A stretch of 64,000 nt of DNA, from assembly GCF_014076495.1 (NCBI RefSeq), contig NZ_CP043575.1:3348001-3412000 (forward strand), written 5' to 3'. Positions 3,001 through 63,820 of the stretch are shown in pieces. This DNA comes from Comamonas koreensis. Lineage in GTDB: Bacteria; Pseudomonadota; Gammaproteobacteria; Burkholderiales; Burkholderiaceae_C. The notes below the pieces were generated by a model that made no database searches, had not been told where the DNA came from, and saw only the letters and a list, made by a program, of their open reading frames with translations. Both the position numbers and the translations under genes were made by a program. The first letter of the stretch is position 1, and each line of letters starts with the position of its first letter.

Positions 3001-5015
3001 TGGTCGGCGGTGTGCTGGGAGGCCTCACCGGCGGCAATGGCGGCTTGCTGGGCGGCCTGACCGGTGAAGGCGGCCTTCTGGGGGGCCTGACCGGCGACGG
3101 TGGTCTGCTGGGCGGCGTTGTCGGCGGAAACGGTGGCCTGCTCGGCGGCCTCACTGGTGAAGGTGGGCTGCTCGGTGGCTTGACCGGTGACGGTGGTCTG
3201 CTGGGTGGATTGCTGGGCTCCGGCTCCGGCGGCGCCGATGGCAGTGGCGTAATCACTACGGCACAAAACCTGGTCGGCGATCTGGTCGGCGGCACGGCCG
3301 CAGCGTCGGTCAATACCGTGGTCGATACCCTCCTCAACCCACAAAGCGGCGCATTGGCCCCTGTGACCAGCGTGGTAGAAAGTCTCACCCATACCGGCAG
3401 CGGGCCGCTGGGCGCCGTCACCTCGGTGGCCCATGGCCTGACCCAGTTGCCTGGCCAGGCGCTGGAGCCGGTCGTCTCTGCCGTGCACGATGCCGTCGCA
3501 GGTCTGAGCGGCGGCGCCTCTGGTGGCGCAGTCGGCGGCTTGCTCGGCGGCCTGACTGGAGAAGGCGGCCTGCTCGGCGGCTCGAACGGTGACGGTGGCC
3601 TGCTGGGCGGTGTCATTGGCGGCAACGGCGGCCTGCTGGATGGTCTGACCGGTGAAGGCGGCCTGCTTGGTGGCCTGACCGGTGACGGTGGTCTGCTCGG
3701 CGGATTGCTGGGCAATGGCGCCGGCGGTGCCGATGGCAGCGGTGTAGTCACTACGGCACAGAACCTGGTCGGTGACCTGGTTGGCGGCACCGTCGCAGCG
3801 CCGGTCAACGCGGTGGTCGATACCCTGCTGGATCCACAAGGTGGCGTCCTTGCACCGGTGACCATCATTGTCGAAGGCCTGACCCAGAGCGGCAGCGGCC
3901 CCTTGGGTGTCGTGACCTCGGTGGCCAATGGGCTCACCCAAGTGCCTGGCCAGGCGCTGGAGCCGGTCGTCTCTGCCGTACACGATGTCATTGCGGGCCT
4001 GAGCGGCGGCACCTCCAGTGGTGCGGTCGGCGGCTTGCTGGGCGGATTGACGGGAGAAGGCGGCCTGCTCGGCGGCCTGACCGGTGACGGTGGCCTGCTG
4101 GGTGGTGTCGTCGGTGGCAATGGCGGCCTGTTGGGCGGCATCACCGGCGAAGGCGGTCTGCTCGGCGGTCTGACCGGCGACGGTGGTCTGCTGGGTGGCG
4201 TGGTCGGCGGCAATGGCGGCCTGTTGGGCGGCATCACCGGCGAAGGCGGACTGCTCGGTGGCCTGACTGGTGACGGTGGTCTGCTGGGCGGATTGCAGGG
4301 CAATGGCTCCGGCGGCGCCGATGGCAGCGGTGTTGTGACCACGGCGCAGAACCTGGTCGGTGATCTGGTCGGCGGCACCGTCGCAGCGCCGGTCAACGCG
4401 GTGGTCGATACCTTGCTGGATCCGCAAAGCGGCGTATTGGCACCGGTGACCAGTGTGGTCGAAAACCTGACCAGCACCAGCAGCGGCCCCTTGGGCGTTG
4501 TGACCTCGGCGGTCAATGGCCTGACGCAGGAGACGGGCCAGGCACTGGAGCCGGTGGTCTCGGCCGTACACGATGTCCTGGCCGGGCTGGGTGGCGCCAC
4601 CTCGGGCGGCGCAGCAGCGGGCCTGGGCGGTGTGGTCGACGGCCTGCTCGGTGACCAGGGCGTACTGGGCAGCGTGCTGGGTAGCACCGGCGCAACGGGG
4701 GGGCTGCTGGGCGGCCTGACCGGCAACACGGGCCTGGTCAGCGGCTTGCTGGGTGACAGCGGCGTGGTCGGTGGCCTGCTCGGCGGCAACACCGGCCTGC
4801 TCTCGGGCATCACCAGTGAGCACGGCCTCGTAGGCGGTCTGCTGGGCGGCAGCGGCGTGCTCGGTGGCTTGCTGGGCGGCACGGCAGCCCCACACTTCGT
4901 GGCCAGCACGGCCGGCAGCGCGCTGCAGCCGGTGGCCACCGCCATCAGCAGTGTGGCCAGCGGCGATGCACACAGCGTGCTGCCGCAGGACCTGCTGCAC
5001 CACCAACTGGCCTGA
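3..5015 (+). CDS. Giant repeat adhesin, type I secretion substrate (5' end outside window)
   Basis: The reading frame is open from the first bases, so the true start lies left of the window; 1670 residues are visible. A GTG at 51 could be read as a start, but the residues before it continue a typical N-terminal module of LapA/BapA-type adhesins. Order: a beta-rich retention-like module (about residues 1-105), a hydrophobic Gly/Ala segment ending in an Asp cluster (GDDDDD, about 125-150), a Pro-Thr-Asn/Asp stalk, eight related repeats of about 90-100 residues, Gly-Leu-rich linkers (LLGGLTG repeats), and a C-terminal tail ending HHQLA. I see no RTX nonapeptides. A Pal-like lipoprotein and a type I secretion operon follow on the same strand, so the inferred role is an exported, cell-anchored adhesin or biofilm matrix protein. 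Family assignment is from architecture only. Confidence 0.8.
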   Translation, partial: ASAKGTPATLSQASAGVQIVRDGQTMAAPAGTALQVGDKIIVPADGSAQAQFSGAGGQKLVGTFAGGTEATLGYQAGADGTGAMALDLASGKVDVAPAGDDTDALGLVVTQETAEAGGSTLGDFLLAGLVGIGGGALIAAALDSGDDDDDRTPPINPTNPTNPTNPTDPTNPTNPTNPTDPTSPTDPTNPTDPTNPTNPTNPTDPTNPTNPTNPTNPTNPTNPTNPTNPTNPTNPTNPTNPTDPTNPTNPTNPTDPTNPTNPTNPTNPTNPTDPTNPTNPTNPTDPTNPTNPTNPTNPTDPTNPTNPTNPTNPTDPTNPTNPTNPTDPTNPTNPTNPTDPTNPTNPTNPTDPTNPTNPTNPTDPTNPTNPTNPTDPTNPTDPTDGHGLITSVEDVLGALGGGTLVAPVTDLVNSLINPSTGTLAVVTSVLEQLTNTNGGPLGVLTELVDGLVNIQDQGLEPLVSTLNQLIAGLGDPTSTEGIPGLVNQVLGGLLGENSPLGELLAGVGGLLGGLLGGGSGTPPGGTDGPGIVTTVQDVVDGLLGGTVAEPVGQLIDSLLHPTDGTLATVTGLLEGLTSVEGGPLGVLTELVHGLTQVDGQALQPLIGTLNELIAGLGSIGEGGISGGLIGSIVDSIFGGLVPGGGSTDGGLVTTVQEVVDGLLGGTVAEPVGQLLDSLLNPGNGTLATVTSVLEGLTSVDGGPLGVLTELVSGLTQVEGQALQPVIGTLNELIAGLGNVGEGGLGGGIIGSIVGGVLGGLVPGGGATDGGLVTTVQDVVDGLLGGTVAEPVGQLLDSLLNPGSGTLATVTSVLEGLTSVDGGPLGVLTELVSGLTQVEGQALQPVIGTLNELIAGLGSIGEGGLGGGLGGGLIGSIVGGVLGGLVPGGGATDGGLVTTAQDVVDNLLGGTVAEPVGQLLDSLLNPGTGTLATVTSVLEGLTSVEGGPLGVLTELVSGLTQVEGQGLQPVIGALNELIAGLGSIGDGGAGGGLGGGLIGTVVGGVLGGLTGGNGGLLGGLTGEGGLLGGLTGDGGLLGGVVGGNGGLLGGLTGEGGLLGGLTGDGGLLGGLLGSGSGGADGSGVITTAQNLVGDLVGGTAAASVNTVVDTLLNPQSGALAPVTSVVESLTHTGSGPLGAVTSVAHGLTQLPGQALEPVVSAVHDAVAGLSGGASGGAVGGLLGGLTGEGGLLGGSNGDGGLLGGVIGGNGGLLDGLTGEGGLLGGLTGDGGLLGGLLGNGAGGADGSGVVTTAQNLVGDLVGGTVAAPVNAVVDTLLDPQGGVLAPVTIIVEGLTQSGSGPLGVVTSVANGLTQVPGQALEPVVSAVHDVIAGLSGGTSSGAVGGLLGGLTGEGGLLGGLTGDGGLLGGVVGGNGGLLGGITGEGGLLGGLTGDGGLLGGVVGGNGGLLGGITGEGGLLGGLTGDGGLLGGLQGNGSGGADGSGVVTTAQNLVGDLVGGTVAAPVNAVVDTLLDPQSGVLAPVTSVVENLTSTSSGPLGVVTSAVNGLTQETGQALEPVVSAVHDVLAGLGGATSGGAAAGLGGVVDGLLGDQGVLGSVLGSTGATGGLLGGLTGNTGLVSGLLGDSGVVGGLLGGNTGLLSGITSEHGLVGGLLGGSGVLGGLLGGTAAPHFVASTAGSALQPVATAISSVASGDAHSVLPQDLLHHQLA
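471..1154 (+). repeat. Tandem 9-bp repeat encoding a Pro-Thr-Asn/Asp stalk
   Basis: About 76 consecutive nine-base units encode Pro-Thr-Asn or Pro-Thr-Asp, with one Pro-Thr-Ser. Thr, Pro and Asn codons vary synonymously from unit to unit, while the amino-acid pattern is nearly perfect. A run of Pro-Thr-X triplets is expected to form an extended, stiff linker, here between the membrane-proximal module and the repeat domains. Confidence 0.95.
1155..4590 (+). repeat. Eight imperfect adhesin repeats with Gly-Leu-rich spacers
   Basis: Repeat units begin near 1155, 1584, 1948, 2308, 2683, 3240, 3738 and 4320. Each has the pattern VTT.Q..V..LLGGTVA.PV, then TLA.VTSVLEGLT, then GPLGVLTELV.GLTQ, then ALQPV...LNELIAGL. 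Units 2-5 are close to each other (TVAEPVGQ form). Units 6-8 form a second subfamily (TVAAPVNAVVDTLL form). From unit 5 onward the units are separated by Gly-rich GLLGGLTGEGG / GLLGGLTGDGG spacers of varying copy number. This implies two rounds of duplication within the gene. Confidence 0.9.
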
Positions 5016-49553: not shown

Positions 49554-50555
49554 ATGCGCGTTCTTCATACTCTCAGGATCGGTATTCTTTCTGCAGGGCT
49601 GGCATCAGCAGGCTTGGCCAATGCTGCCGTAGAGACATTTTTCGGAGAGGATGCTGTTAATGGATCTGCCAGCGCACCCAGACCTCAATCCGATGCCGCG
49701 CGGGATGCATTTATTGCGCGACTGAATGGCGCAAACACTGAGAATTTTGATGCGATCAGTGCAGGCACGCCGGCGCCATTTTCTGTGAACATGGGCGCAT
49801 CTGGAACCGCAACTCTTTCCGGATCAGCAACGGTTACCAACTTTTTGGGAAGTGGCAGATTTGCTACGTCCGGCTTCAACTTTATAGAGACCAGCACCAA
49901 CTTCACCATTAGCTTCTCATTGCCACAGACCGCTTTTGGATTCTATGCGACAGACATATCCGATTTTGGCGGACAGTTGAGCATCACCTATTCAGATGGC
50001 ACATCCAGTACAGTTGCCGTCCCACATAGCAATCCCGCCACAGATGGCTCAGTATTTTATTATGGCCTCATAGATATGGACAATCCATTTGTCTCTGTTG
50101 TTTTTAATAACAGTAATGCAACGGATATCTTTGGCTTTGATGATTTAACTGCTGGCACTGCAGCCCAGGTGATTCCGCCGGTTTCTATCGCCACTGCAAG
50201 TCTGCCAGCAGGAATGCATGGCAAAGACTATTTACCATTTACTGTAGAAGCAACTGGCGGACTCGCTCCGTTGACTTGGAGCGCAAACAATCTTCCTGCT
50301 GGACTTCTTCTTGACCCGGTAACCGGCGTCTTATCTGGCAGACCTACACAGAGCGGCACATTCACGGTGGATATTTCCGCAACGGATGCCAGTAGCCCCA
50401 CGTCGCTCAGCGATACCAAGTCGTTCACGATAGAAATCACAGCGGTGCAAGCAACTGCAGCTCCCACACCGGTGCCAACCCTCGGTATCTGGGCTACCGT
50501 TGCTCTTTCGTCCCTGCTTGCGCTCTTTGGTTGGACGCGCCGCCGCCAGTATTAA
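49554..50555 (+). CDS. IPTL-CTERM surface protein with Ig-like domain
   Basis: 333 residues, AAGAGG upstream. Signal peptide about 1-24 (GILSAGLASAGLANA). The middle region (about 50-200) resembles extracellular beta-sandwich domains of PEP-CTERM-type proteins. A putative Ig domain occupies about 205-295 (ATGGLAPLTWSANNLPAGLL, TGVLSGRP). The C-terminal sorting signal is PTPVPTLGIWA, a hydrophobic helix and RRR. Its base composition is lower in GC than the neighbours, which suggests acquisition. Second protein of this anchor class in the window. Confidence 0.87.
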   Translation: MRVLHTLRIGILSAGLASAGLANAAVETFFGEDAVNGSASAPRPQSDAARDAFIARLNGANTENFDAISAGTPAPFSVNMGASGTATLSGSATVTNFLGSGRFATSGFNFIETSTNFTISFSLPQTAFGFYATDISDFGGQLSITYSDGTSSTVAVPHSNPATDGSVFYYGLIDMDNPFVSVVFNNSNATDIFGFDDLTAGTAAQVIPPVSIATASLPAGMHGKDYLPFTVEATGGLAPLTWSANNLPAGLLLDPVTGVLSGRPTQSGTFTVDISATDASSPTSLSDTKSFTIEITAVQATAAPTPVPTLGIWATVALSSLLALFGWTRRRQY

Positions 50556-50640
50556 TCTGGCTGAGAATGCGCCCGCAGATCCCGTGGCTACTGGCCTTGC
50601 ACCCAGCGGCAAATGACAGACCTAGATGCCTGAAGGGCGT

Positions 50641-50665
50641 AAAAAAGCCCGCTATACAGCGGGCT
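50641..50665 (-). terminator. Intrinsic terminator facing the prophage side
   Basis: On the minus strand: AGCCCGC, loop TGTATA, GCGGGCT, then TTTTTT. It would stop leftward transcription from the small prophage genes, or from guaA before insertion if the boundary call is right. The rest of 50556-50865 holds the attachment-site candidate and AT-rich sequence, with no convincing gene. Confidence 0.85.
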
Positions 50666-50714
50666 CAGCAGGGAATGCCTTCAAGCTAATTCTGGCTTAC
50701 TTTCTAAAGCCAGC

Positions 50715-50726
50715 TCACTCCCACTC
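50715..50726 (-). other. Putative prophage attachment site (guaA 3'-end core)
   Basis: The minus strand reads GAGTGGGAGTGA. This is the coding end of guaA (Glu-Trp-Glu-stop), but no guaA gene precedes it here. guaA 3' ends are a known integration site for genomic islands and phages, with this same core. If so, intact guaA should lie beyond the right end of the prophage, outside the window, reading toward it. Confidence 0.6.
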
Positions 50727-50865
50727 CAATATATACAAGGACTTTAAGCTGTTGATTAACAAAGATTTTTCGATTGATCAAAATCGAATAACCATCTTGC
50801 TAACCATCAGCTATTACTGCTCTAACTTGCTCGACTTTGCCATTTACAAGCTGGCCACATGATGG

Positions 50866-51165
50866 TTAAGCAGCGATCCTCACATCGAATCTGGTTTCCT
50901 CGTTCATCTTACGGGCGCCGAGGGCAAGCTGAGCAGCCTTGACATAGGCCTTGTGGAAAGACTCCGCCTTGCTCTGCATGTCCTTGGACAGGGTGATCCC
51001 ATCGTCGCCCAAGGCGGTCATGTAGGCCTTGTAGCTTGAGCTCATGGCCTCAGTATTGCGGAACTCGCCCTGCAGGACCTTGGAGAATTTTTGGACCACC
51101 TCTTGGATGGCCTGGTCGGTCATCTTGCTGGGTGCGTCGTGAAGCGTGACGATGATGTTGGACAT
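50866..51165 (-). CDS. Small SOS-linked prophage protein (unknown)
   Basis: 99 residues from the ATG at 51165, with AAGGAG eight bases upstream. It starts MSNIIVTLHDAPSKMTDQAI and is largely helical, Lys/Ala-rich and without Cys. A canonical LexA box lies 40 bases ahead of the start, so expression after DNA damage is expected. The start (a short beta strand, then helices) and the LexA control recall DinI-type proteins, but I see no diagnostic match. Function unknown. Confidence 0.75.
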   Translation of the reverse strand: MSNIIVTLHDAPSKMTDQAIQEVVQKFSKVLQGEFRNTEAMSSSYKAYMTALGDDGITLSKDMQSKAESFHKAYVKAAQLALGARKMNEETRFDVRIAA

Positions 51166-51205
51166 TTGGACTCCTTGTTGATGGAGCCCGAAGTGTAGCC
51201 AAACA

Positions 51206-51221
51206 CTGTATTTATGTACAG
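51206..51221 (-). promoter_or_regulatory. LexA-binding site (SOS box)
   Basis: CTGTATTTATGTACAG fits the CTGT-N8-ACAG consensus with an AT-rich centre. It lies 40 bases upstream of the 99-residue gene and just past the end of the Rap1a-like gene. Confidence 0.85.
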
Positions 51222-51226
51222 TATTT

Positions 51227-51595
51227 TTACTTCTTACCCTCCTTCGGAGGGCAAGGAAAGGCGTCCTGCAATGCTTCGATCGTGAGATCCACCGCCGGCT
51301 GATGGCGTTTTTTCGCATTGTCTTGAAGATGGTTGTAGACAACATCAACGATCTGTCCTCCAGTGACAGTATGCGGAATGCAAAAAAGAATTTTATTTAA
51401 ACTATCAATAACTCCTCTCACATAGCCATAACCCAGCGCCTGATCAAACACCGCGTCGGCAGGAGGAGGGCCTCCTGCTGGTGTCGGCTGTTTGAAGTCA
51501 TATAGCGCTTTGAAAAGTTTATTTCCTGAATAGGTTTCTGCATGTGCCCCCAATGAACACAAGGTAGCAGCAAGTACAAGCGCAATAGCTTTCAT
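51227..51595 (-). CDS. Rap1a/Tai-family immunity-like protein
   Basis: 122 residues from the ATG at 51595; longer upstream extensions lack a start context and would remove the signal peptide (MKAIALVLAATLCSLGAHA). The mature part fits the Rap1a/Tai family: GNKLFKALYDF, then GYVRGVIDSL, FCIPHTVTGGQIVDVVYNHL, the RHQPAVDLTIEAL segment and AFPCP. Two Cys likely form a disulfide. Known members are periplasmic immunity proteins against type VI amidase effectors. In a prophage this is likely a lysogenic conversion gene. Confidence 0.8.
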   Translation of the reverse strand: MKAIALVLAATLCSLGAHAETYSGNKLFKALYDFKQPTPAGGPPPADAVFDQALGYGYVRGVIDSLNKILFCIPHTVTGGQIVDVVYNHLQDNAKKRHQPAVDLTIEALQDAFPCPPKEGKK

Positions 51596-51662
51596 GACGT
51601 TCCAGCCAATAATGATTCCACCCATTATGGACAATTCTGTAACTCCAATTAACAATGGCACA

Positions 51663-52040
51663 ATGAAAGCTGCATTTTTTATCCTTGCCTCTGCGCTATC
51701 CCTCACGGCATGCGGGTCCTGGTCCCATCCACAGTACACAGGGGACGCTGGCCGTGCGCAGTTTGAGCGCGACAAGGCTGAGTGCGTGCAGTCCGCGCAA
51801 AGCAACGCGAAGGCGCAACCCGCTGCAGCTGTGCCTGCCAGCAACCGCCCCACAACTTACTCTGTTCACACGCAGGACATGGGAGGCGGCTACACCTCCG
51901 CGACCGTGACGCCTACCTCTCCCGCTGCCGGCGCTCCCGTGGCGAGCAAGTACGATGGCGGCGCGAAGAACGTGGCGCAGGTCGCATCTCGCGATGCGTG
52001 CCTGCGCGCCAAGGGGTGGAGCTTCTCCACCAGCAATTAA
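51663..52040 (+). CDS. Small prophage lipoprotein
   Basis: 125 residues from the ATG at 51663, where the lipoprotein signal starts (FFILASALSLTAC, Cys about residue 17). The mature part contains RAQFERDKAECVQSAQSNAK, a Thr/Pro-rich stretch and the C-terminal RDACLRAKGWSF, giving two further Cys. This ECV...CLRAKGW layout is common in small uncharacterised lipoproteins of Burkholderiales. It reads opposite to the polyvalent gene, overlapping its stop by four bases, and divergently from the Rap1a-like gene, which fits a moron. Confidence 0.8.
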   Translation: MKAAFFILASALSLTACGSWSHPQYTGDAGRAQFERDKAECVQSAQSNAKAQPAAAVPASNRPTTYSVHTQDMGGGYTSATVTPTSPAAGAPVASKYDGGAKNVAQVASRDACLRAKGWSFSTSN

Positions 52041-55000
52041 GGCTGTTCCGCCCCCGCCAACGAATTGACAGCCTGTGCCCGCATGGTCTTGGGCACAGAC
52101 TTGAGCACGCGCATGTCCTTGTCGGTCTGCGCCTGCTTGGCCCGGCTCTTGATGGTGGATGGATTGATCACAATCGGGGTGTCGGGATAGCGATCATTCC
52201 ATTTGTCGCGCTCTGCCAGCGCCGCGTCGAGCGCCTTTTGATCGTTGTCGACCACCGCCTGGGTCAGCTTTCCAGTTATCTGCCCCTGACGCTTGCGCAG
52301 CAGCGCGGCGTCCTGCATCAGCGGGCCGGTGCTGCGCGACTTCTCAGCGTTGGCAGTTGGGTTGAAGCCCAGCAGTTTGGTTACGCCGGCCGACTTCGGC
52401 AAGTCCATCACCTTGCGGCCGCGCGTGTCGGTGTTGTGACCCTTGGTCATGATCTCGATGCCTGCGGCTGCGTTGCGCACCGCAGTCGGCGCCAGGTTCA
52501 GTGCTGCCTTGCCGACGTTGCCCTCGTCCATGGCGCCGACAGCGTCCGAAGCCTGGCCTACCAGGGAGAAGATCGGGCCCAGGACCTCGGTAGATTCTCT
52601 GCTCTTCATCGAGTCGGAGTTTGAAGGGCGCAGCGCACCGGTGCCGGGGACCAGATTGCCCAGCCCCAGGCGGCCAGAGAAGTCCAACGGGAGCTGGGCA
52701 GACACGCCATACAGCGCCAGATCGCCGAAAGTCTTGCCCAGCATCGAGTACGCCCAGTCGCGCTTGTTGCGCTTCATGTTGGTGTTGAACCCCATCATCT
52801 GACCGGCAGTGTCGATCAGGTCATCCAGGTCCTGAGCAAAAGGCAAGCCCTCCTCACCCGACGCCAGGATCAGCACCGCCAGCATGGTCAGCGCCGCGCG
52901 CTTGCCGCCCGGCCCAGCGCGGTACATGCGGTTGAGCAGCTCCAGGTAGGTCAGGCTGTACTGCTTGAAGGTGAACAGAAGGCGCCCCACGGTCGAGCGC
53001 GCCAGGTTGGGGCGGCTGACCTTGTTGTAAATGCCCTGCGTCTGGTTCACAGCGCGCACAGCAAAGGCGTAGACATCCCTTTGGCCTTGCTCCTTCGCCA
53101 TGTTGTAGGCCGCGATGAACGACAGCCGGCGGTTGAAGCCTTCGGCTGCAGCGAACATGGAACCCCAGAGAGTGAAGAAGGCCTGAGCTCGTGCACGGGC
53201 CGAGTCGCCGCCCGCCTGCACCTTATCTCCCAGCCCGGGCACCTTGGCGGCCAGGCTCACCAGCTTGGCGGACAAGCCGCGGGTGCCAGCGCTGTACAGG
53301 TGGAAAATCTCCTGTGCATCGACGATACCCTCCTGGCTGGCCCGCTTGAGCGCGGCGCGCAATTCAGCGTCGGCAATCTGCTTGCGACCCATGGCATATG
53401 GCAGCGCCTTGGTGAGGTGCGGCACGGGATTGCCGAATTGCACCAGGTATGGTGCAGTCATCATCACGGGTTGCGTCATGTTCACGATGGCCGATGCCAC
53501 ATTCCCGCCAAGGAACCACGCAAAAGCCAAGCTGCTCGCCATGGCCCCGCCGTCGTTGTTGTCGCCCATGAACTTGCGCAGTGCAATCGCCTCGTCGCGC
53601 ACATCACCCTTTGCCTGGGGGATGTAGCGGATAGCGTTGTTGATGTCGCGGCTGAAATAGCGCTGGCTTGCCAGGCGGGCATTGCTGGTGATGAAGCTCG
53701 ACAGGACGCGCGGCAGATCCGTGCTGTAGCCAGGCGTACCCTTGCGCTCAAGGCGGCGCTTCAAGGCGCTGCGCTCGGACAGTGCGGCTTCGTAGTATTT
53801 CTGTGTGACCGTGTCAAAGCCAACGATGTCGGCGAACAGAGCAACGGTTTCCGGCGTGATGCCCTGTAGCAGCTCGTGGCTGCGCTTGGAATCGTGCCCA
53901 TGCTCGGTGAGGTACTGGGTTGCCGGATACTTGCGGCGCGCGGCCTTAAGCGCTGCATTGGCTTCGGCCTGCGTCTCAAACTTCTCAAACAGTACAGTCT
54001 GGCGGTTACCCTCTGCGTCATAGGCAATCTGGCCATCCACATCGAGCGCGGTGACGGTGACGGTGTAATCACCGAAGCGCATCAAGGGCGCGTAGCCAGC
54101 CTTAGCCAAGTTCTCCGCAGTGGCAAAGATCTGCCCCACCTTCGTGCGCGACTCCTGCATGCGCGCGATCTGCGCCCCGATGCTGGCCGCGATGTCCGGA
54201 TCGCGCAGCGCCATGCCTTCCATCGCCTTGGTCGAAGTGTCGATTTGCTTATCGAATTCCCCTAGGATCAAATCTTTGGCTTGGGCTGGGTCGTCCATCA
54301 CCGAGCGGCGCGCTCCTTCGGGCAGATAGGATCCGGCGATTGCATAGGCCTCTGCCGCTGCCACCTCCATGAGGCTGGCGTCAATGGCAGCGCGGGCTTG
54401 GCCGTAGGCGGCCACAGCCAAGTCATCCATCTTGAACTTTGAGCGCAGCTCGGCCTCGCTGAACACTTTGCCGTCCATCACGCTCTCACCGGCCAGCGTG
54501 CCTGCAAACAGGGCCGCCGACGCCTTTCCGACAGGAGACTTATCGCCCTGCCCCATCACCAGCTGCTTGAACGCCTCAGCCACACCGTCTACCTTCGGCA
54601 GAACCATGGGGGCCAACTCGGAGGGGCGCAGCGCGGTCAGCGAAACAGCCGACTGCTGCGCATTGATCAGACCGAAGACTTTCCCGAAGTGCTTATCTTT
54701 CAGCGCTTTGTTGTACTGGGTGGACAGGCTCTTGTCGTACCAGTTGAACGACTTGAACCGCGCAGGCTGGGCTACGGCTTCGATGGCTTTGCCGCTCGCC
54801 GAGTCTGCAATGCTTGCAGGCCCCTGGCTTGAATCCTTGCGGTTGAAACGAATGTCAGCGTTAGCTGGTTCAAAGTTACCGTTGTTGCCGATGGCGCTCT
54901 TGATCTGCTCAGGGCGGAAGGCAACGATTTCCTTTTCGCCGCCCTTGTGCTCGATAATGATCCCGTCGTAGCCCATCTTGGCGAGCGTGTCGCGCACATG

Positions 55001-58000
55001 CTCGGTATCCATTTCCGCGCCTGGCTGGTCCATGACCCGCTCCACCACGCTGCGCGGTGCTGGGTTCTGGATCGATAGATAGACCTCCATCACGTTGCCC
55101 GAGCCTTGGGTGTACGTCTCAGCGGCCGCTCGTGCGCTGGCGAAGTAGAAGCCGGTGCCCCAATCAGTGTTGCCGTCGCCCTCGCCGCTGAATTCGTCGC
55201 TGAATTCCGTGAACACCTCAGGGGTGCCGTGATAAACCACCATCGGCTTACCTTCAGCATCAACAACCTTGCTATCGCCAAACCAGCGCTTGAAGGCCGC
55301 AGTATCGGTTTGCTTTACATCTTGAGTGTGGGGCTCGCCATTGCCTTGATAAATGTTTTGCAATACACTTCGGATAGCTCCAACATTGTTTTTGGCGCCA
55401 GTGTGGTCCCCAGCTTCGGCTGCATCGCCCCTGGTCTTGAACGCCCCTTGTTGGAGCTTTTCTTTTAGCACTACCTCGTGCACATACAGACGGCTGGCGT
55501 GATCGTCTGACTTGACCAGCGCAATCTCGATCATCTCCTTGCCGGCCAGGTTGACCGGTGCTGCGATGTAGTAAACCATCCCAGCCCCGCGCGATCCGTC
55601 CATCGGTTCACTGTGAATGATCTTGCCCCTTGAGAGCACATCAGGCACGGCCGCGAAGGCATTGGCCTTGTCACGGCTGATGCCGTGCGAGATGCTGGAC
55701 TTGACTGCTCGTTCGTCCAATTGGACCGCACCAATCCCTGCCACCTTGATAACCTGCTGACCTCGGTCGCGGAACCATTGCGGCACCTTGTCCGTGAGCT
55801 TCTGGCCATCAGGTGCAAACTCATCACCCTTCGTAGATGCGACCGGCGCGCCATCCAGGAACCGGCGGACATCATCCTTGCGATTGAAGTTCGGATCGAT
55901 GCCTGCTTGCTTGTTCAGCCGCGACTGGTTCAGGTGATACTCGCCCATGACCTGGCCGGCAATCTCCATGACTGCCTTGAAGTCAGTCACAAAACGGTCT
56001 GTGCGCTTGCTGTAACCCAGCGAGGTGAGTGCCTTCTGGATCAAGCGGGCCACAGCCATTTGCACCTGGACCAGCAACTGCTTGTTGGAATTACCGACAG
56101 CACGCCAGAAGTCAGGGTCCATAAAGCCATCGGAGAAAACTTCGCCGACGAACTCCTCAATTTGCTGGTGAGGCTGGAGATGATTGGGAGCAACATCAGA
56201 GCCAAAGAACTTGGTTTCAAGTTCGTGCTCTTTGATGTAGGGCTCGATGGCGTCCAGCAGCCGGTCGTAAAGCGCTGGATTGGTCTTTGCCAGGATGTGG
56301 GCGAACTCATGTCCCAACACCGCGATATGCGGACGCTGGGAATCAACGTTCAGATAGATGGCTCCTTTGTACGTGACGCCATTGAAGTCCACCGCTTCTC
56401 CGCGGGAGTTAACGGGCGCTCTTTCGGTAGGCCGGATTTGAACCTGAATAACCGGGAGGCCCAGCGACTGCGCCAGTGATAGAAGACTCTCGTCTCCAGC
56501 GGTACGCCTTCCTTCCACGAGACGCGCAGCTCCGAAATCGCCTCCAAGTCCGTCATTGAGAGCGGCGACAGCTCTCTGTGTATCTGGCGAAAGATCTGGA
56601 GTGGAGTTTTCTTGGTTGGCATCGCTGTCCTTGCGGCTGAACTTAGGCGCCTCGATGGCTTCGGACAAGTGTTCCTGGCGAATGAACCACTTGCCGCCCT
56701 TGTTCCAAGTATATGGATCGGCCAATTGTGCCTGCTCTTTGGTCAGGCCTGCGCGCCAGACCCCGTGGAGCGTCTTGCCGCGCTTGGTGACATAAGCTTC
56801 AATGGGCTCCTCGCCTCTCCATGTTTTGTTCGCAGGCGCCGCACTGCCGCGCTTGCTCTCGGCCACAACCTTCGCCTGGTCCGCAACGCTGGGCGCATCC
56901 TTGGCGCGAGCTGGCAGGCCAATATCCTCCAGTCGGTCGAACAGATCGGCGACACTGTCCACGCTGGTGAGGTCGATATGGCGGGCTGATCCGTAGGCAG
57001 CGCGCTTTTCCTCGCTCGCCTGCTTTTCCAGCACCACGATTCGGGCGGCGACCGCTGTGCCGGCGCGCTCAAATGCCACCTGAGGCAACGCAACGTCGGC
57101 CATCAGCACTGCGTCCGGGACCAAGCTTTCGCCCTTGTCGTTTGCGCCATAGAGCCAGTCGTTCAACCGCTTATCGGCCGCCGGGCCGGTGGGGATCAGG
57201 GCTACCAGGCGGCCACCATCGCGCAGATGCCCCCAGGCCTTGGCAACGTGCTCTATCGCCGTCTTGCCACCCACACCAAAGGGCGGGTTCATCACGATGG
57301 AATCGAACTTGTTGGACTTGGCCAGGTCCTCAAACACGCCATCAACAACGCGATCCTCGGCCGGGTTGATGTTCAGTGCCAGGCGGGCGCGCAAGGTGCT
57401 CGAAGGTTCCACCACCGTGCGCTTGACGGCATCCGGGAACCAGCGCGCAATGGCGCCATGGCCGGCGCTGGGCTCCAGCGCATCGTCACCTGGGCGCATG
57501 TCGGCCCACTGCACCATCTTCAACCCCACCGGCTCGGGGGTGGCGAAGTAGTCTTTCCCCTCCTGTGCCTTCGTCTTGGCGTTCTTTTTCTGTGTGCCGA
57601 AATAGTAGGCCTTGGCTCGATCCCATTCAGTGAGCGCACCATTGATCTGCCGATCGCGCGCCTTGCCACCCTTGCCCTCGCCCTCGTGCCCCGGCTCGTA
57701 GTAGTCGCTCTCCTCAAACGCCTGGATGAAAGAATCCTTGAGCGCGCGCGCTTCTTCGCCCAGGCTCAGATTCTCGGCTGCGCTGGCCCGCCCGGCGATG
57801 GTGCCTGCGAAGGTGTGCTTCTCCCAGCTGGTGCCGGTGTTGAAGTAGCGAATGATGGCGTCCGACACCTGGCCGGTGCGGTAAATGCGGCCTTCTTGCT
57901 GGATCGCCATAGTGGGTGCTGAGGGCTGCCCCAGGTTAACCAGCACGCGCTGATACTTCCCGGTCGTGTCGTGACCACTCCAGCCCGCATTTTTGGCAGA

Positions 58001-61000
58001 CTGCACCAGAAGCACTGCAGGCAGCTCGGAGTCGTTGTTGAACTTCTTGTAGCGCTCGAGCATTGCCTTGGCTTTCTCGTCGCCGTTGACCGGCATGACC
58101 TGGTCTCCGAAAGCCCGTTGGTACGCCTCAATGGGCGACAGCATGTTCTCCAGGCCAGAGGACAGCAGGTCCTTGAACTCTCGGCGGAACTCCGACACCG
58201 CCTCGGCCAAGGCCGCGCGCTGGTCAGCGGTCAGGGACCCGTACTCACCGAGCTGCTCAACTGACACGTTGAACGGGTTGAAGCCACCACCCTTTTTGTA
58301 GTCGTGAAAGACAACTACCTTTCGGCCCATTTCGAGTTGCTTGCGCACATAGGGAATGCTGTGCTCCGCCTTGATGGCCTCCAGGAGATACCTGCGGGAC
58401 AAGTAGTCGAATGACCCACGGATCAGCTTGTTGAGATTCTGGTAGGTCTTCGGGTCCTTGCCCTCGGCCCGGCTCTGCTCGTCCATCCACTGGAAAACCG
58501 CGTCGATGCGGTTGCCCAGATCCGAATCAATCAGGACGAAACGGCGGTCATAGTCAGCAGCAACATCCAGTACACGCGACGAAAGCACACCCTCGCGCTT
58601 GAGCCAGGTGTTGAAGTTGCGTTGCATCAGGCCGCTGTCCACCCCGGCCTCGGGGGCGGTCAGCTTGTTGTAGCGCATGCGGTAGCCGAAGTGCTGCATC
58701 ATGAACTGCTCGCGGCCGTTGCCGGAGTTGTATGCGGCGCCTTCTGCCTGGGGATACTCAAACAGGTATCCATTGGCCCAGTCCACCGTCTTCTCGTAGG
58801 CGAACGGCGTGGCCGACAGGAACAGCGCGCGGGGGCGCTTCTCCCCTTGGTTGGCCGCCACAAAGGCCTTTTCCTGCTCGTAGAGGTCGCGCAGCTCCTT
58901 GTTCAGGTCGTCAATCTTCTCCTGCAGGCGCGAGACATTAACCGCCTTGTCGCCGGCCTCCTCAGCCGCCTTGCGCTCCTCGCTCAGGCGGCGAACTTCC
59001 TCCAACTTGTCGGCGTTCTTGGCGCGGTGACGCGTCCAGGCCCCATCTGGGTGGAGCGTCAGCGCGCGTACCATCCTGAGCGCATCGGTCTCCTTGGCGT
59101 CCTCGGACTGCATCAGCTTTTGGGCCTCATCGGCGACCACCAAATCCCAGGCGCGCGTACTCAGCTGATTGTTTTGGCCCACATTGGCATACGTGGTTAC
59201 GACCACACCGCGCCCCGCATCCTTGGTGTCGGCCAGCGCAGTGATACCGATGTCCAGGCGCTTGCCGGAGTCAATCCAGTCGTTAAGCACCTTCTCGTCA
59301 GGAACCACCACCAGGATGTTGTCTTTGCCTTGTCGCACCTGGCGCGAGATAACACCCAACCCCGTGAAAGTCTTTCCGGTGCCAGTGCCGTTGGTGAACA
59401 GCATGCCGTAGCCGTCTGGCTTGTCAAAGCGTGCTTCGGCCTTGACAACGTCGTCTTGCTGCCCAGGGAGCAGAGATGGCAGTGTGTCGCGGACATTCTG
59501 AATGCCGCGAGAAATGGGAGTGCTTAGTGCACCGCGCTGGCTTGTGCGGGCCTTAGCTGCTTCAAGGCCTGACGCAGCACTTGCTGCAACTGTCGCTGCT
59601 GGGATGGAGTCAGGCGGTACTCCTCCGATGCCAACATCACTGCCTCGCTCACGGAAACCACTTCCGGTAGCGATGCCCGCAAGTTCAGATAGCCCGTCTC
59701 CTGTATGAACGCGCTGATCGCCTCGTTCTCCATCAGGAGCGGCGCCACGATCCGGAACCCCAGAATCACGCTGTTGTCCGTCGTGTACTTCTCCGCGAAC
59801 GCGTCCACCTTCGACTCGATCAGCTTGTCCATCTCGTCCGGATCCGAGCTCATCACCTCCCGCCAGAACGGATCCAGCGGCTGGCTGCGTGCTATCTGGT
59901 TCCAGATCGGGGCGGGTACTTGATGCATTGTTTTGTGCCTGTGTAGGTTTGTCTTGAAGTTTAGCCAATTCGGCGCGTACTGTCTCGGAAGAATCCATCC
60001 CCTCAACGGAGAGGTTGCTGTCTTCCATCATGTCGCGCGCGCCGTTGTACCAGCCGCGCAGGAACGGGCGGATCTTGCTGATAGGGGCGTCCAGGTCGCG
60101 GGCAATGGCCTGGGCAAAATCGGCGAATTTGCGCGCACCGGCTTCGATGTGGAACACCGCGAGCTCAGTGCCGATTGCCAGCATCTCGGGATCAATCCCT
60201 GAATTGAGTTGGCCCAGCTTCTTTTTCAGCCGCTCACGCAGCTCAGCCGCGCGGTCAGCACTCACCAGCTTATTCGCGGCGCCGTATGAGCTATCGGGTT
60301 GGGGGGCGCTTGAATCTTCGGCCTGTTCGCTAGGGCGGATATTCGCGTTGTCGTTCACTGCAGGATTCGCTGATTCCTGCACCTTGGCTCGCTCAATCGG
60401 CCCCTTTTCCAGCTCCTTGCGGCTTGGCATCGTGGAGTGTTGGCGCTGCTGCTCGTTGGGTGCATCAACCCATGCATCACCCTGCTTGCGCACGGCCTGT
60501 ACCGTGACCTTCGCGCTGGCCGTGTCTGACTGAGGCACATAGGAAATAACGCGATCGGTGCCACCGCCATATGATTCAACGATGTTGCCTGGGGTGAAAT
60601 ACTCCGCCGTGGCTGCCTGCGTCTGCTTAGCCGTGAGGGGCTTGGTTTTCTTCCGAGCAGGAGCCTTCTCAACTGGGGCAACAGCCGTCTCAGTGTTGTC
60701 GACAACATCCTGACGAACCGCTTTGGCCGCGATCTCATCCCCAATGGATTGCACCTGTGCCTCTGCCTCCGTGCGATCTGCAGCACCAAGAGCATCTTTC
60801 ACCAAGTCCAGGCGGCGCTGCGTGAGCTTTTTACCAGGGGTGGCCGCGACCTTGTCTGCCTCGGCCTGAGTGATCCCAGAGCTCGCCTGCATCAGCAGTG
60901 CGGCGCGGGCTTGCTGGTCCAACGCATCCCAGCGCGCGCGCACCGGCAGTGGCTTGCCTTCCTCGGTCACGCTGGCAGTGGCGCTGCCTGGAGCGCTCTC

Positions 61001-63820
61001 GGTGACGGGCTGCGCCGCCGCCGGGCGCTCTCCTCCGGCAATTTCCGCCTCTGAGAAGCCCAGCGAGCGCATGGCCTCTGCCTGGCTCACATTGCTCTCG
61101 CCAGACAGAGGATCACCAATATCCAGATCAGGGTCTTCGTCAATAGGCGCAACTTGCTCCTGCTGGGTCGCCCAGTCATAAGCGGCTCGGTCCGCCGCAT
61201 CGCTGGCGTCATATGCGGCCTCTGGTGCTGCGGCTTCCTGGGGGGACTCCACGGCCTCGGGCGCTGGTAGCGCCTCCTGTTGTGGCTGGCCCTGCGCCTG
61301 GGCAGCGTGCTGGTCCAAACCGTAGAACACCGCAAGAGCTGCAGGATCTCCGCGATGCTGCTCCAACACGCGCAGCTCATTCAATTCTGCAGGGGTGAGC
61401 TGCTCGCCACCCTCTTCTACGTAGCTTCCATCCGCGTCCTGCACCACTTCGCCATCGCGCTTGGCGCGCAGGGTTTGGTAGCGTGAAGAAGCTAGGCCCA
61501 GCACTGCCTCGGTGTCCAACTGCGCTGCTGACGCATCAGCGGCCACGCTTTGCTGCACCAACTCGGCAGATGGCTGAGCCACAGGCGCCGCCTCAGCAGC
61601 AGGCTCTGCTTCCAATACCGGTTCCACACGACCGTCGCCCGTGGGCGCTAGGCGGACGGGAGCAGCCGTGTCTTCGGACGGTTGAGCCAGCTGTCCGAAC
61701 TGTGCCCAGGCGGTCAGAGCCTTGTCCTTGGCCTTCATCGCCTCCGCTTCCATGATGCGCTCGGAAGGGCCCTTCTCCGACAGAAAGCTGGTGACCTTCC
61801 CAACTCCGCTGGTGCCGCCAGCCATAATGCCGCCCTGCATCAGCGTCTGAACGATGGTGTCCGCGACCTGGCCCAGGTAGTCGTTGAAAGTTGCACCCTT
61901 GTTCAAGCCCATTTGGGTGAATTTGTCCGTTGCAAATTGCCCGGTAGTCGTCAGTACCTCGCCAGGAACTTCCTTGGAAAGCGCGTGGAAAAGCAAACCC
62001 GCAATCTGGTCAGACGGCATGCCCTTAGCCGCGCCGCGCAGCGCATCGAGCTGGTGCCCGAGGCCAAAGCGTTCCCCAATGACTTCAAATGCGGCAAACA
62101 GGCCAGCTCGCTTGGTGGCGTCGGCGACGGTCAGTTTCTTCTCACGGCCCTCGGCATACTCCTGGCCGAAGCTCTGCGCGGCAATGCCGCCCAGCACCAG
62201 GGCCTGGCCGCCCTTGATGGCCGCGCCGCCCATCAGCAACGGCAGTTGCTGGCCGATGGAGTTGATCGCGCCCTCCAGGTTGCGCGCCATCATGTCGCCG
62301 CGCTCACCAATGGCAGCAGTCTTTTGCCCGATCAGCTTATTGTTGGCGCTGGCAAAATCCTTTGCGAGATCTTCTGCCCCGGTCACATCCGCCGCAAACT
62401 GAGATAGACCCAGCGCGGTCTGGCCGATCCCAAGTGCGGCCTTAGCGATCCCGCGCACTGCTGCGTTGTTCACACCATTGCCTGGCTGGTTTGGATTGAA
62501 CAGCTTGGCAGTCTCGAAATCGAAATCGCTATTGCCTACCGAGGGGTTGGCCAGCAGCTCTTTACCCGCTGGCAGACCTTTGCGTGCAGCATCGTTACCC
62601 ATGGTCTCAGCGAACGCAGCTTGCTCGCCTGCGCGCATGAGCCGCTCGCGGCGAGCCTCGGCACGCGTGTCAAGCGGCGCGGGTGTAAGCGCCTCCTGGT
62701 CTCGGCGCGCATCCACTGCACCCATCTGCTCGGCACGCTGGCGGGCCACCAGTCCTTGCCAGCTGTCCTGAGACTCAAGAACCTTGCGCTGCTCCGGCGT
62801 TGCGGCGTCCCAAGCGCCTTGCACAGCCTGCCTCATCTCGGGGCGCAGTGGAATTCCCCCTGCATTGTTCGCCAGCGTAGGGCTGTTCGCTTGCATATTC
62901 TCCCGCGTGAGCACCGAGCCAGCCTGCGCGGCGGGGTCGGCGGGCAGCTGCGGCTTCTTGCGCTGCATGTGGGGGAACACTCCAAATGCTGCCTGGCCAG
63001 TTTCCGTGGGCGCTGCCGTAGCCGCGGCGGGATCCTGTGTCAGAGGAGGCAAATCGCTGAGGAATTGAGCGCGCAGCGCATCGGCGTCCGAGCCGGCGTG
63101 CGGCTGGATGAATGTGTCGAAGTATGCTTCTTTGGCACCGCGCTGCTGTTGCGCCGACATGGCGGCAAACTCCGGCTTCGATGCCAGCTCGGCCCAGGTG
63201 GGAATGGACTGCTCTTGCGCAGCGGGTTTCAGCTTGGCCAGCGCGGCCGACGCTACGCCGGCGGCGGCAACGCCCTTGCGGATGTAATCGGGGTCCTCTG
63301 CATAGCCGCCTTGCTTGAGCGCGGTGAAGTAGCTTCCGGCGTCCTTGGCGCCCAGGACGTTTCGATAGCGGTCCTTACCAAGCAACCCGGCGAAGTCATC
63401 AGCGAATGCGTCACCGTTCTCGTAAGCGCGGTACTTGTCCACGCTGCCAGTCATGTTGTCCTTGGCCGACACACCCCGGCCCGAGAAGTCCTTGATGTTG
63501 CCTAGATTGTTGGTCCCTGGAATGACTGACTTGCCCCACCCGGTTTCCAGGCCCCACTGCCCGATGATGGCGTCCACCGGCGCGCCAGTCTTCTCGGAGA
63601 CCCGTTGCGCCATGGGAAGCACTTGCCCCACGAAATCGTCCACGTTCTTGGATGGCTTGGAGCCAACGGTGGAGAGGGTTGCAGGTGGTGCGTATTCGGG
63701 GATCGCAGGAGCAGCGGCCTGCTGCACCTCGTTGGAAAAGTCAGCGAGTGCCTGAGCATTGCTGAGGCTTGCGGCCAGAGTGTTGATGTTGAGTTCAGTG
63801 TTCTGGCCGTTTTGCTGCAT
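52037..63820 (-). CDS. Giant polyvalent phage protein (DarB-like, 3927 residues)
   Basis: One intact frame. Modules in order: FlgJ-type glucosaminidase (about 62-188, Glu92 in GQWGLETGWGK); Ala/Gly-rich hydrophobic stretches (about 450-690) that could enter membranes; acidic/Pro-rich spacers; and a superfamily 2 helicase (Walker A NGTGTGKT, Lys1483; DEAQ at 1564-1567; GHDTTGKYQRVLVNLGQPS near 1960). Next come an N6-adenine methyltransferase (EPSAGHGA near 2115; NPPF, Asn2178), a metallopeptidase-like site HEFAH (2504-2508), a possible phage nuclease-like domain (about 2690-2810), and an ADP-ribosyltransferase-like domain (VVYHGTPEVF, about 2840-2990). A long helical C-terminus follows, with LPLDFSGRLGLGNLVPGTG near 3720. 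Phage P1 DarB and large podovirus ejection proteins share this plan: packaged and injected with DNA. Confidence 0.92.
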   Translation of the reverse strand: MQQNGQNTELNINTLAASLSNAQALADFSNEVQQAAAPAIPEYAPPATLSTVGSKPSKNVDDFVGQVLPMAQRVSEKTGAPVDAIIGQWGLETGWGKSVIPGTNNLGNIKDFSGRGVSAKDNMTGSVDKYRAYENGDAFADDFAGLLGKDRYRNVLGAKDAGSYFTALKQGGYAEDPDYIRKGVAAAGVASAALAKLKPAAQEQSIPTWAELASKPEFAAMSAQQQRGAKEAYFDTFIQPHAGSDADALRAQFLSDLPPLTQDPAAATAAPTETGQAAFGVFPHMQRKKPQLPADPAAQAGSVLTRENMQANSPTLANNAGGIPLRPEMRQAVQGAWDAATPEQRKVLESQDSWQGLVARQRAEQMGAVDARRDQEALTPAPLDTRAEARRERLMRAGEQAAFAETMGNDAARKGLPAGKELLANPSVGNSDFDFETAKLFNPNQPGNGVNNAAVRGIAKAALGIGQTALGLSQFAADVTGAEDLAKDFASANNKLIGQKTAAIGERGDMMARNLEGAINSIGQQLPLLMGGAAIKGGQALVLGGIAAQSFGQEYAEGREKKLTVADATKRAGLFAAFEVIGERFGLGHQLDALRGAAKGMPSDQIAGLLFHALSKEVPGEVLTTTGQFATDKFTQMGLNKGATFNDYLGQVADTIVQTLMQGGIMAGGTSGVGKVTSFLSEKGPSERIMEAEAMKAKDKALTAWAQFGQLAQPSEDTAAPVRLAPTGDGRVEPVLEAEPAAEAAPVAQPSAELVQQSVAADASAAQLDTEAVLGLASSRYQTLRAKRDGEVVQDADGSYVEEGGEQLTPAELNELRVLEQHRGDPAALAVFYGLDQHAAQAQGQPQQEALPAPEAVESPQEAAAPEAAYDASDAADRAAYDWATQQEQVAPIDEDPDLDIGDPLSGESNVSQAEAMRSLGFSEAEIAGGERPAAAQPVTESAPGSATASVTEEGKPLPVRARWDALDQQARAALLMQASSGITQAEADKVAATPGKKLTQRRLDLVKDALGAADRTEAEAQVQSIGDEIAAKAVRQDVVDNTETAVAPVEKAPARKKTKPLTAKQTQAATAEYFTPGNIVESYGGGTDRVISYVPQSDTASAKVTVQAVRKQGDAWVDAPNEQQRQHSTMPSRKELEKGPIERAKVQESANPAVNDNANIRPSEQAEDSSAPQPDSSYGAANKLVSADRAAELRERLKKKLGQLNSGIDPEMLAIGTELAVFHIEAGARKFADFAQAIARDLDAPISKIRPFLRGWYNGARDMMEDSNLSVEGMDSSETVRAELAKLQDKPTQAQNNASSTRPDLEPDSTQPAAGSVLAGGDELGSGRDGQADRVEGGRVRGEVHDGQQRDSGVPDRGAAPDGERGDQRVHTGDGLSELAGIATGSGFRERGSDVGIGGVPPDSIPAATVAASAASGLEAAKARTSQRGALSTPISRGIQNVRDTLPSLLPGQQDDVVKAEARFDKPDGYGMLFTNGTGTGKTFTGLGVISRQVRQGKDNILVVVPDEKVLNDWIDSGKRLDIGITALADTKDAGRGVVVTTYANVGQNNQLSTRAWDLVVADEAQKLMQSEDAKETDALRMVRALTLHPDGAWTRHRAKNADKLEEVRRLSEERKAAEEAGDKAVNVSRLQEKIDDLNKELRDLYEQEKAFVAANQGEKRPRALFLSATPFAYEKTVDWANGYLFEYPQAEGAAYNSGNGREQFMMQHFGYRMRYNKLTAPEAGVDSGLMQRNFNTWLKREGVLSSRVLDVAADYDRRFVLIDSDLGNRIDAVFQWMDEQSRAEGKDPKTYQNLNKLIRGSFDYLSRRYLLEAIKAEHSIPYVRKQLEMGRKVVVFHDYKKGGGFNPFNVSVEQLGEYGSLTADQRAALAEAVSEFRREFKDLLSSGLENMLSPIEAYQRAFGDQVMPVNGDEKAKAMLERYKKFNNDSELPAVLLVQSAKNAGWSGHDTTGKYQRVLVNLGQPSAPTMAIQQEGRIYRTGQVSDAIIRYFNTGTSWEKHTFAGTIAGRASAAENLSLGEEARALKDSFIQAFEESDYYEPGHEGEGKGGKARDRQINGALTEWDRAKAYYFGTQKKNAKTKAQEGKDYFATPEPVGLKMVQWADMRPGDDALEPSAGHGAIARWFPDAVKRTVVEPSSTLRARLALNINPAEDRVVDGVFEDLAKSNKFDSIVMNPPFGVGGKTAIEHVAKAWGHLRDGGRLVALIPTGPAADKRLNDWLYGANDKGESLVPDAVLMADVALPQVAFERAGTAVAARIVVLEKQASEEKRAAYGSARHIDLTSVDSVADLFDRLEDIGLPARAKDAPSVADQAKVVAESKRGSAAPANKTWRGEEPIEAYVTKRGKTLHGVWRAGLTKEQAQLADPYTWNKGGKWFIRQEHLSEAIEAPKFSRKDSDANQENSTPDLSPDTQRAVAALNDGLGGDFGAARLVEGRRTAGDESLLSLAQSLGLPVIQVQIRPTERAPVNSRGEAVDFNGVTYKGAIYLNVDSQRPHIAVLGHEFAHILAKTNPALYDRLLDAIEPYIKEHELETKFFGSDVAPNHLQPHQQIEEFVGEVFSDGFMDPDFWRAVGNSNKQLLVQVQMAVARLIQKALTSLGYSKRTDRFVTDFKAVMEIAGQVMGEYHLNQSRLNKQAGIDPNFNRKDDVRRFLDGAPVASTKGDEFAPDGQKLTDKVPQWFRDRGQQVIKVAGIGAVQLDERAVKSSISHGISRDKANAFAAVPDVLSRGKIIHSEPMDGSRGAGMVYYIAAPVNLAGKEMIEIALVKSDDHASRLYVHEVVLKEKLQQGAFKTRGDAAEAGDHTGAKNNVGAIRSVLQNIYQGNGEPHTQDVKQTDTAAFKRWFGDSKVVDAEGKPMVVYHGTPEVFTEFSDEFSGEGDGNTDWGTGFYFASARAAAETYTQGSGNVMEVYLSIQNPAPRSVVERVMDQPGAEMDTEHVRDTLAKMGYDGIIIEHKGGEKEIVAFRPEQIKSAIGNNGNFEPANADIRFNRKDSSQGPASIADSASGKAIEAVAQPARFKSFNWYDKSLSTQYNKALKDKHFGKVFGLINAQQSAVSLTALRPSELAPMVLPKVDGVAEAFKQLVMGQGDKSPVGKASAALFAGTLAGESVMDGKVFSEAELRSKFKMDDLAVAAYGQARAAIDASLMEVAAAEAYAIAGSYLPEGARRSVMDDPAQAKDLILGEFDKQIDTSTKAMEGMALRDPDIAASIGAQIARMQESRTKVGQIFATAENLAKAGYAPLMRFGDYTVTVTALDVDGQIAYDAEGNRQTVLFEKFETQAEANAALKAARRKYPATQYLTEHGHDSKRSHELLQGITPETVALFADIVGFDTVTQKYYEAALSERSALKRRLERKGTPGYSTDLPRVLSSFITSNARLASQRYFSRDINNAIRYIPQAKGDVRDEAIALRKFMGDNNDGGAMASSLAFAWFLGGNVASAIVNMTQPVMMTAPYLVQFGNPVPHLTKALPYAMGRKQIADAELRAALKRASQEGIVDAQEIFHLYSAGTRGLSAKLVSLAAKVPGLGDKVQAGGDSARARAQAFFTLWGSMFAAAEGFNRRLSFIAAYNMAKEQGQRDVYAFAVRAVNQTQGIYNKVSRPNLARSTVGRLLFTFKQYSLTYLELLNRMYRAGPGGKRAALTMLAVLILASGEEGLPFAQDLDDLIDTAGQMMGFNTNMKRNKRDWAYSMLGKTFGDLALYGVSAQLPLDFSGRLGLGNLVPGTGALRPSNSDSMKSRESTEVLGPIFSLVGQASDAVGAMDEGNVGKAALNLAPTAVRNAAAGIEIMTKGHNTDTRGRKVMDLPKSAGVTKLLGFNPTANAEKSRSTGPLMQDAALLRKRQGQITGKLTQAVVDNDQKALDAALAERDKWNDRYPDTPIVINPSTIKSRAKQAQTDKDMRVLKSVPKTMRAQAVNSLAGAEQP

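Follow-up and report, generated by a model that had tools for sequence, protein, structure and literature searches.

A complete, unannotated second gene appears to lie in the +1 frame inside the giant open reading frame (ORF) of a Comamonas koreensis prophage, as judged by the comparison of related loci. The giant ORF takes up part of the window (the whole 64,000-nucleotide stretch of DNA analysed here), and its product is a phage-type polyvalent protein, encoded beside podovirus-like late genes. Start, stop and frame of the nested gene are conserved, and it is conserved above the level of the host frame that encloses it. Giant polyvalent proteins as a class were already described in the main text of a 2017 study (PMC5512222); the nested gene and a short motif at the seams between modules go beyond the original prediction made from this DNA, which missed both.

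The giant polyvalent protein

The giant ORF (Table 1) starts with an ATG and is open throughout on the minus strand, while the plus strand in the same register has many stops. An uninterrupted frame of 11.8 kb under selection had been predicted without naming a strand, and both points were borne out: dN/dS relative to the nearest relative, L008, is 0.018–0.344 across 13 segments. The catalytic motifs also lie where they had been placed, namely Glu92, GTGKT at residues 1480–1484 (Lys1483), DEAQ at 1564, NPPF at 2178 and HEFAH at 2504. Comamonas odontotermitis and IMG/VR contigs supply relatives with 71–96% identity; another relative, P0122, has N- and C-terminal parts in common with the giant protein and a different central cassette.

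Table 1. Features of the giant ORF and the nested gene, in window coordinates.
Feature	Residues	Coordinates	Strand	Basis
Polyvalent protein ORF, 3927 aa		52037..63820	-	Open frame, relatives, dN/dS
Glucosaminidase domain (Glu92)	69–182	63275..63616	-	PF01832, E 1.7e-16; PDB FlgJ chains, to 1.4e-13
Putative nested gene, family A, 134 codons + TAA	over host 1298–1433	59524..59928	-	+1 frame of giant ORF
SNF2-type ATPase/helicase	about 1441–2080	57581..59500	-	ResIII, 1.9e-7; invariant motifs
N6-adenine methyltransferase (FATP 2092, NPPF 2178)	about 2084–2300	56921..57571	-	PHROG; MTS below cut-off
FSRK, methylase/zincin seam	2394	56630..56641	-	Breakpoint ranking; pLDDT <50
Zincin-like module (HEFAH 2504)	2423–2633	55922..56554	-	Profile match; fold not confirmed
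FNRK, zincin/LPD3 seam	2645	55877..55888	-	Motif scan; structure model
LPD3 domain	2674–2779	55484..55801	-	PF18798, E 4.2e-8
ADP-ribosyltransferase (ART) domain	2854–2983	54872..55261	-	PF18760, E 2.1e-30
FNRK, ART/C-terminal part seam	2992	54836..54847	-	Motif scan; structure model
PLxRFG C-terminal domain, predicted mostly helical	3242–3913	52082..54097	-	NF032893 (NCBIfam), E 2.3e-119

At least two domains of disparate activity are thus joined in one chain. Above their Pfam cut-offs are Glucosaminidase, ResIII, LPD3 and ART-PolyVal (the last with 106.8 bits against a cut-off of 31.2), while MTS (1.8e-4; 21.7 bits vs 23) and SNF2 (0.0012; 18.5 vs 24.9) fall below theirs; PHROG DNA methyltransferases match with E down to 9.2e-24. 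Among 12 aligned relatives, the helicase residues K1483, D1564 and E1565, SATP 1669–1672 and Q1974...R1978..R1981.GQ are invariant, as are T2094, P2095 and NPPF in the methylase and H2504 and E2505 in the zincin-like module. Upstream on the same strand are matches to portal, major head, tail and internal or structural virion proteins, the late-gene neighbourhood of a phage-type polyvalent protein; the 402-aa protein directly before the giant ORF has no PHROG or Pfam match. These profile matches and late genes support the original reading in part, as regards a large polyvalent protein that belongs to a podovirus-like prophage and combines wall-cutting, helicase, adenine methylase and ART modules. 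The wall-cutting module is there as well, although by Pfam and PDB matches it is a FlgJ-like glucosaminidase and not the muramidase it had been called.

The HEFAH module, taken to be peptidase-like, fared less evenly. It has no Pfam match, but 54 of 290 proteins are matched by a profile built on it, with HExxH or HExxxH in 52 of the 55 matched stretches. The predicted structure, on the other hand, did not confirm a zincin fold: the model of residues 2385–3010 has a pLDDT of 55.5 and no fold match at E 0.001. (In three proteins, P0022, P0025 and P0042, HEFYE replaces HExxH in this module, and the metal site is possibly inactive or altered.) The model of the C-terminal part, with a pLDDT of 73.3, likewise gave no fold match at E 0.001. 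The ART module is listed in the 97% identical relative P0002 and not in P0003–P0006, and the alignment gap of L006 and L007 coincides with it; from these alignments, the module is mobile, having been recently gained or lost.

Iyer et al. (2017; PMC5512222) describe polyvalent proteins built from domains of this kind and propose that they are delivered with DNA; about 36% of the phage-type ones have a zincin-like MPTase. Like them, the window protein is encoded next to phage late genes and unites unrelated enzyme domains in a single chain, namely lysozyme, SNF2 ATPase, adenine methylase, ART and LPD, along with a putative zincin. It differs in that its helicase precedes the methylase. P1 DarB also combines an adenine methylase and an SNF2-type helicase in a phage protein, but there the methylase is N-terminal to the helicase (PMC5512222, main text). 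Of the kinship to DarB that had been suggested, membership in the large polyvalent class is retained and the DarB domain order is not, the helicase motifs lying at 1480–1984 and those of the methylase at 2092–2181. LPD36, which lies before the methylase in the DarB type, is not among the Pfam matches at E up to 1, from a library that may lack a model for it.

A nested gene in the +1 frame

The helicase–methylase cassette spans residues about 1171–2395, and the nested gene is located in the linker just ahead of the helicase. Relative to L006, host third-position changes fall at residues 1321–1440, and it was this pattern that led to the +1-frame gene at 59928–59524. Relative to L007, dN/dS in the segment 1181–1440 reaches 0.88, with a dS of only 0.043, because the nested gene overlaps this segment.

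With a 109-residue core as the tblastn query, 47 of the 51 loci scanned were matched, all 47 in the +1 frame; F116, P1, L045 and L047 gave no match. A profile (HMM) of this family, family A, also recovers L045 and L047, bringing the total to all 49 loci fetched with the SNF2 helicase type, compared to 0/80 and 0/78 for the Strawberry-notch and DarB cassette types. The frame was scored as +1 in 48 of these 49, and the one left unscored, L036, is +1 by tblastn. All 51 HMM hits are enclosed in a longer ORF of another frame (L058 and the window being one locus), and in the 48 scored, the nested gene ends 43–127 codons before the helicase Walker A motif. Over the 240 nt before the nested stop, the +1 frame is open in 45/45 loci, whereas in the 17 comparison windows (of 21) that lie wholly off the nested gene it is open in only 0–13 of 41–45 loci (with the anchor 2 nt late). 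For the same bases, identity in the nested frame exceeds that in the host frame in 44/44 comparisons with the window (means 0.505 vs 0.355), and host third-position divergence is 0.15 within the nested gene vs 0.40 in the helicase for 17 chosen pairs. (Three near-duplicates, L009, L016 and L018, were left out of the counts of 44 and 45.)

An ATG is present at the expected start in all 45 family A sequences, the start being taken as an ATG no further than 16 codons upstream of a W-N-E/Q-I-A-like motif; odd sequences required additional patterns. A Shine–Dalgarno 4-mer accompanies this ATG in 34/45, vs 269/3479 control ATGs, the window's own copy being without a strong one. Family A has no match below 0.31 in either PHROG or the PDB, and only weak Pfam matches, the best (1e-4, to TPR_LAA1_C) in 2 of 41 members. 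Among 299 genomes of the bacterial family searched, only the window's own genome gave a match.

Nested families in other cassette types

Other helicase–methylase cassettes carry nested frames of their own. In Strawberry-notch-type loci (the best 80 of 225 relatives), a +1-frame family, S, is found in 63/80, and in DarB-type loci (from the best 80 of 191), 71/78 hold a +1-frame family, D1 in 40 and D2 in 31; one S and one D2 hit were unscored for frame. (The type names are taken from the query proteins.) All scorable nested frames are +1, no locus has two nested families, and each cassette type fetched has only its own family or families. These totals of 49, 80 and 78 include near-duplicates, the copies distinct at 90% identity numbering 43 A, 40 S, 32 D1 and 21 D2; the profiles were grown on the counted loci, with at most 45 A, 58 S, 36 D1 and 8 D2 seeds that match by construction. 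The loci were fetched by their enzymes, and nested copies elsewhere could escape.

Shine–Dalgarno 4-mers are enriched in all four families, occurring in 37/48 for A (controls 226/2929), 54/60 for S (167/4286), 31/38 for D1 (166/2345) and 19/30 for D2 (106/1654); no ATG was found for 2/62 S and 2/40 D1. Placement varies with type. The median distance from the end of family S is 262 codons back to the methylase motif and 97 onward to Walker A; D1 and D2 terminate some 200 codons ahead of the methylase motif. Alignment of the families by hhalign gave 0.1–1.9% and showed no homology, though the families may be distantly related. D1 matches the end of phrog_938 (2185 positions) at E 4.5e-24 and has a weak match to TnpV, 0.0077, below the cut-off. 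None of the four families was found in the P1 (50 kb) and F116 stretches fetched. (In Pseudomonas phage F116, L012, a short DNA match to the 3' part of the giant gene falls on the adjacent long ORFs gp59 and gp60.) A +1 frame of at least 70 aa with an ATG and a Shine–Dalgarno sequence is present in 20 of the 24 loci that lack a family hit.

Serratia phage Parlo, Pseudomonas phage Skulduggery and Klebsiella phages ZX1, SopranoGao and LASTA likewise have DarB-like or PLxRFG giant proteins. Family A has matches in the first three and D1 in the last two, the +1 frame being confirmed in Parlo, Skulduggery and SopranoGao, and the nested gene has no listed CDS of its own in any of the five; the same is true across the 9 public phage regions covered, and in Itty13 the listed ORFs run on the opposite strand. 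In Sinorhizobium phage PBC5 (L223), the D1 stretch ends orf33, in a frame continuous with the annotated upstream ORF, which may be either the natural state or a sequencing error. No annotation of the nested families was found, nor a description in the titles and opening abstract lines of open-access papers on overlapping, embedded or nested phage genes or in passages of PMC13299392. No nested gene is mentioned in the sections of PMC5512222 consulted. As in viral overprinted genes (the subject of the review PMC8227390), two proteins would share one stretch in different frames; the difference is that several families recur here in linkers of three helicase–methylase cassette types.

Common gene finders disfavour long same-strand overlaps. 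This bias would cause such nested genes to be overlooked wherever a phage has a giant DarB-like protein. Should they prove to be translated, isolated phages would allow tests of several unstudied protein families and of what is likely an element controlling injected DNA-modifying machines.

A recurrent motif at module seams

The giant protein has three copies of F[SN]RK, one each behind its methylase, zincin and ART modules, and every one of these sites falls inside or borders a model segment with pLDDT <50. The tripeptide FSR ranked first of 2589 for proximity to homology breakpoints (622 vs 62.9 expected) in a set of 41 related query proteins, P0001 and 40 drawn at random from 289; several of the tripeptides just below it in rank are fragments of this motif. 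Enrichment near breakpoints is weak, 1.7-fold (rank 376), for FNR, which stands at two of the window's three seams. When the first 175 proteins were compared for FSR on either side of the zincin, the p value was 2.4e-5 in windows selected post hoc and was not significant over 3951 tripeptides, and a second FSR set (165 sites, 115 proteins) was discarded as confirmation, being non-independent, since the query held both flanks. P1 DdrB and DarA have no F[SNAT]R, and P1 DarB has one FAR.

The F-S/N-R motifs appear to mark module seams, as protease sites, recombination joints or domain-end signatures. We consider it an even question whether they are recombination joints or structural domain ends, as opposed to protease sites. 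The location of FSR at homology breakpoints is consistent with joints, as are a within-ORF codon identity at FSR above expectation (52 vs 36.1 of 87) and the over-use of AGY serine codons there (0.64 vs 0.42). However, FSR serines still use both AGY and TCN codons (in a count of 40 FSR sites across 46 ORFs that extends beyond seams), which suggests selection at the peptide level, and the window's own sites are in or border low-confidence linkers. The zincin might cut at the motif, although P0022, P0025 and P0042 carry it without HExxH or HExxxH. Self-processing of polyvalent proteins is predicted in the main text of PMC5512222, where no cleavage sites were found named and "FSR" and "linker" have 0 occurrences; the seam motif offers candidate sites. 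A literature search for IRFSR found nothing relevant.

What could the nested gene do?

We lean, by a modest margin of confidence, towards an explanation in which the polyvalent protein is delivered with DNA and the nested 134-residue protein serves its own cassette as a cognate chaperone or inhibitor. By analogy with its class, the giant protein would be synthesised late, enter the virion and be ejected along with the DNA; the glucosaminidase would open the peptidoglycan on entry, the helicase–methylase would mark and protect the incoming DNA, and the ART and zincin modules may act on host or self. Delivery and DNA protection are proposed because of membership in the polyvalent class; what is observed for the giant protein is its domains, conserved catalytic motifs, late-gene context and purifying selection. 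The +1 frame of the linker before the helicase would yield a separate protein, most likely from its own ATG, and this would be a cognate partner, most likely a chaperone or inhibitor keeping the enzymes folded but idle in the producer. For the nested gene, conservation, frame, start and type linkage are observed, and the partner role is proposed from that linkage, since no fetched cassette type carries a nested family other than its own; the tie between nested gene and enzymes is, in these sequences, one of co-occurrence alone. The differing place of the nested gene between types lowers confidence in the partner explanation, and also in a broader one. In that broader reading, which is doubtful though possible, several cassette types generally carry a +1-frame linker gene for a cognate small partner that moves with the cassette and has one role despite the different families, and a resident protease cuts the giant chain into modules at the F-S-R seams.

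That the +1 frame is a mere by-product of host amino-acid conservation or composition bias is very improbable. Long spurious frames are indeed common in these loci (6403 of at least 100 codons), but the host frame is the less conserved of the two over the nested gene in every comparison with the window, and the +2 frame shows the reverse pattern. Among related, non-independent pairs, the nested frame is better conserved than the host frame in 862/876 (A), 1527/1542 (S) and 720/877 (D) for +1, and in 3/187, 1/156 and 1/699 for +2. The antisense frames do not fit as well; their corresponding counts for A, S and D are 3/1744, 431/4101 and 36/4639 (-0), 22/332, 280/1289 and 76/1183 (-1), and 11/24, 1/5 and 50/127 (-2), and some of these pairs may be shadows of the +1 gene. 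It is also improbable, though less so, that ribosomes enter the nested frame by +1 frameshifting and not at its own start, which would produce a shortened giant protein made up of the N-terminal part and the small domain. The uniform +1 register would fit, as would the annotated upstream ORF of PBC5, which ends in a D1 domain, and the match of phrog_938 to D1 near its end; the invariable ATG of family A and the Shine–Dalgarno enrichment in all four families argue for separate initiation instead. Somewhat less unlikely is a virion-delivered antirestriction or anti-defence factor that is not a cassette partner, given that small proteins annotated as anti-restriction (DdrA, Ulx, Hdf) are encoded near darB in P1. 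Such a factor is harder to square with families that are tied to cassette type and show no homology to one another, and with the enclosure of every family A hit in a longer ORF.

Other features of the prophage

The large terminase, upstream in the same prophage, is represented by two overlapping ORFs on the minus strand (L004:286-1164 and L004:1127-1918), one a C-terminal and one an N-terminal part, and the copy may be split. No direct repeats of at least 18 nt were found between window positions 50301–52040 and L004/L005. Just past the giant ORF, at window positions 51227–51853 on the minus strand, there is a Rap1a immunity protein domain of either prophage or host origin (1.2e-16).
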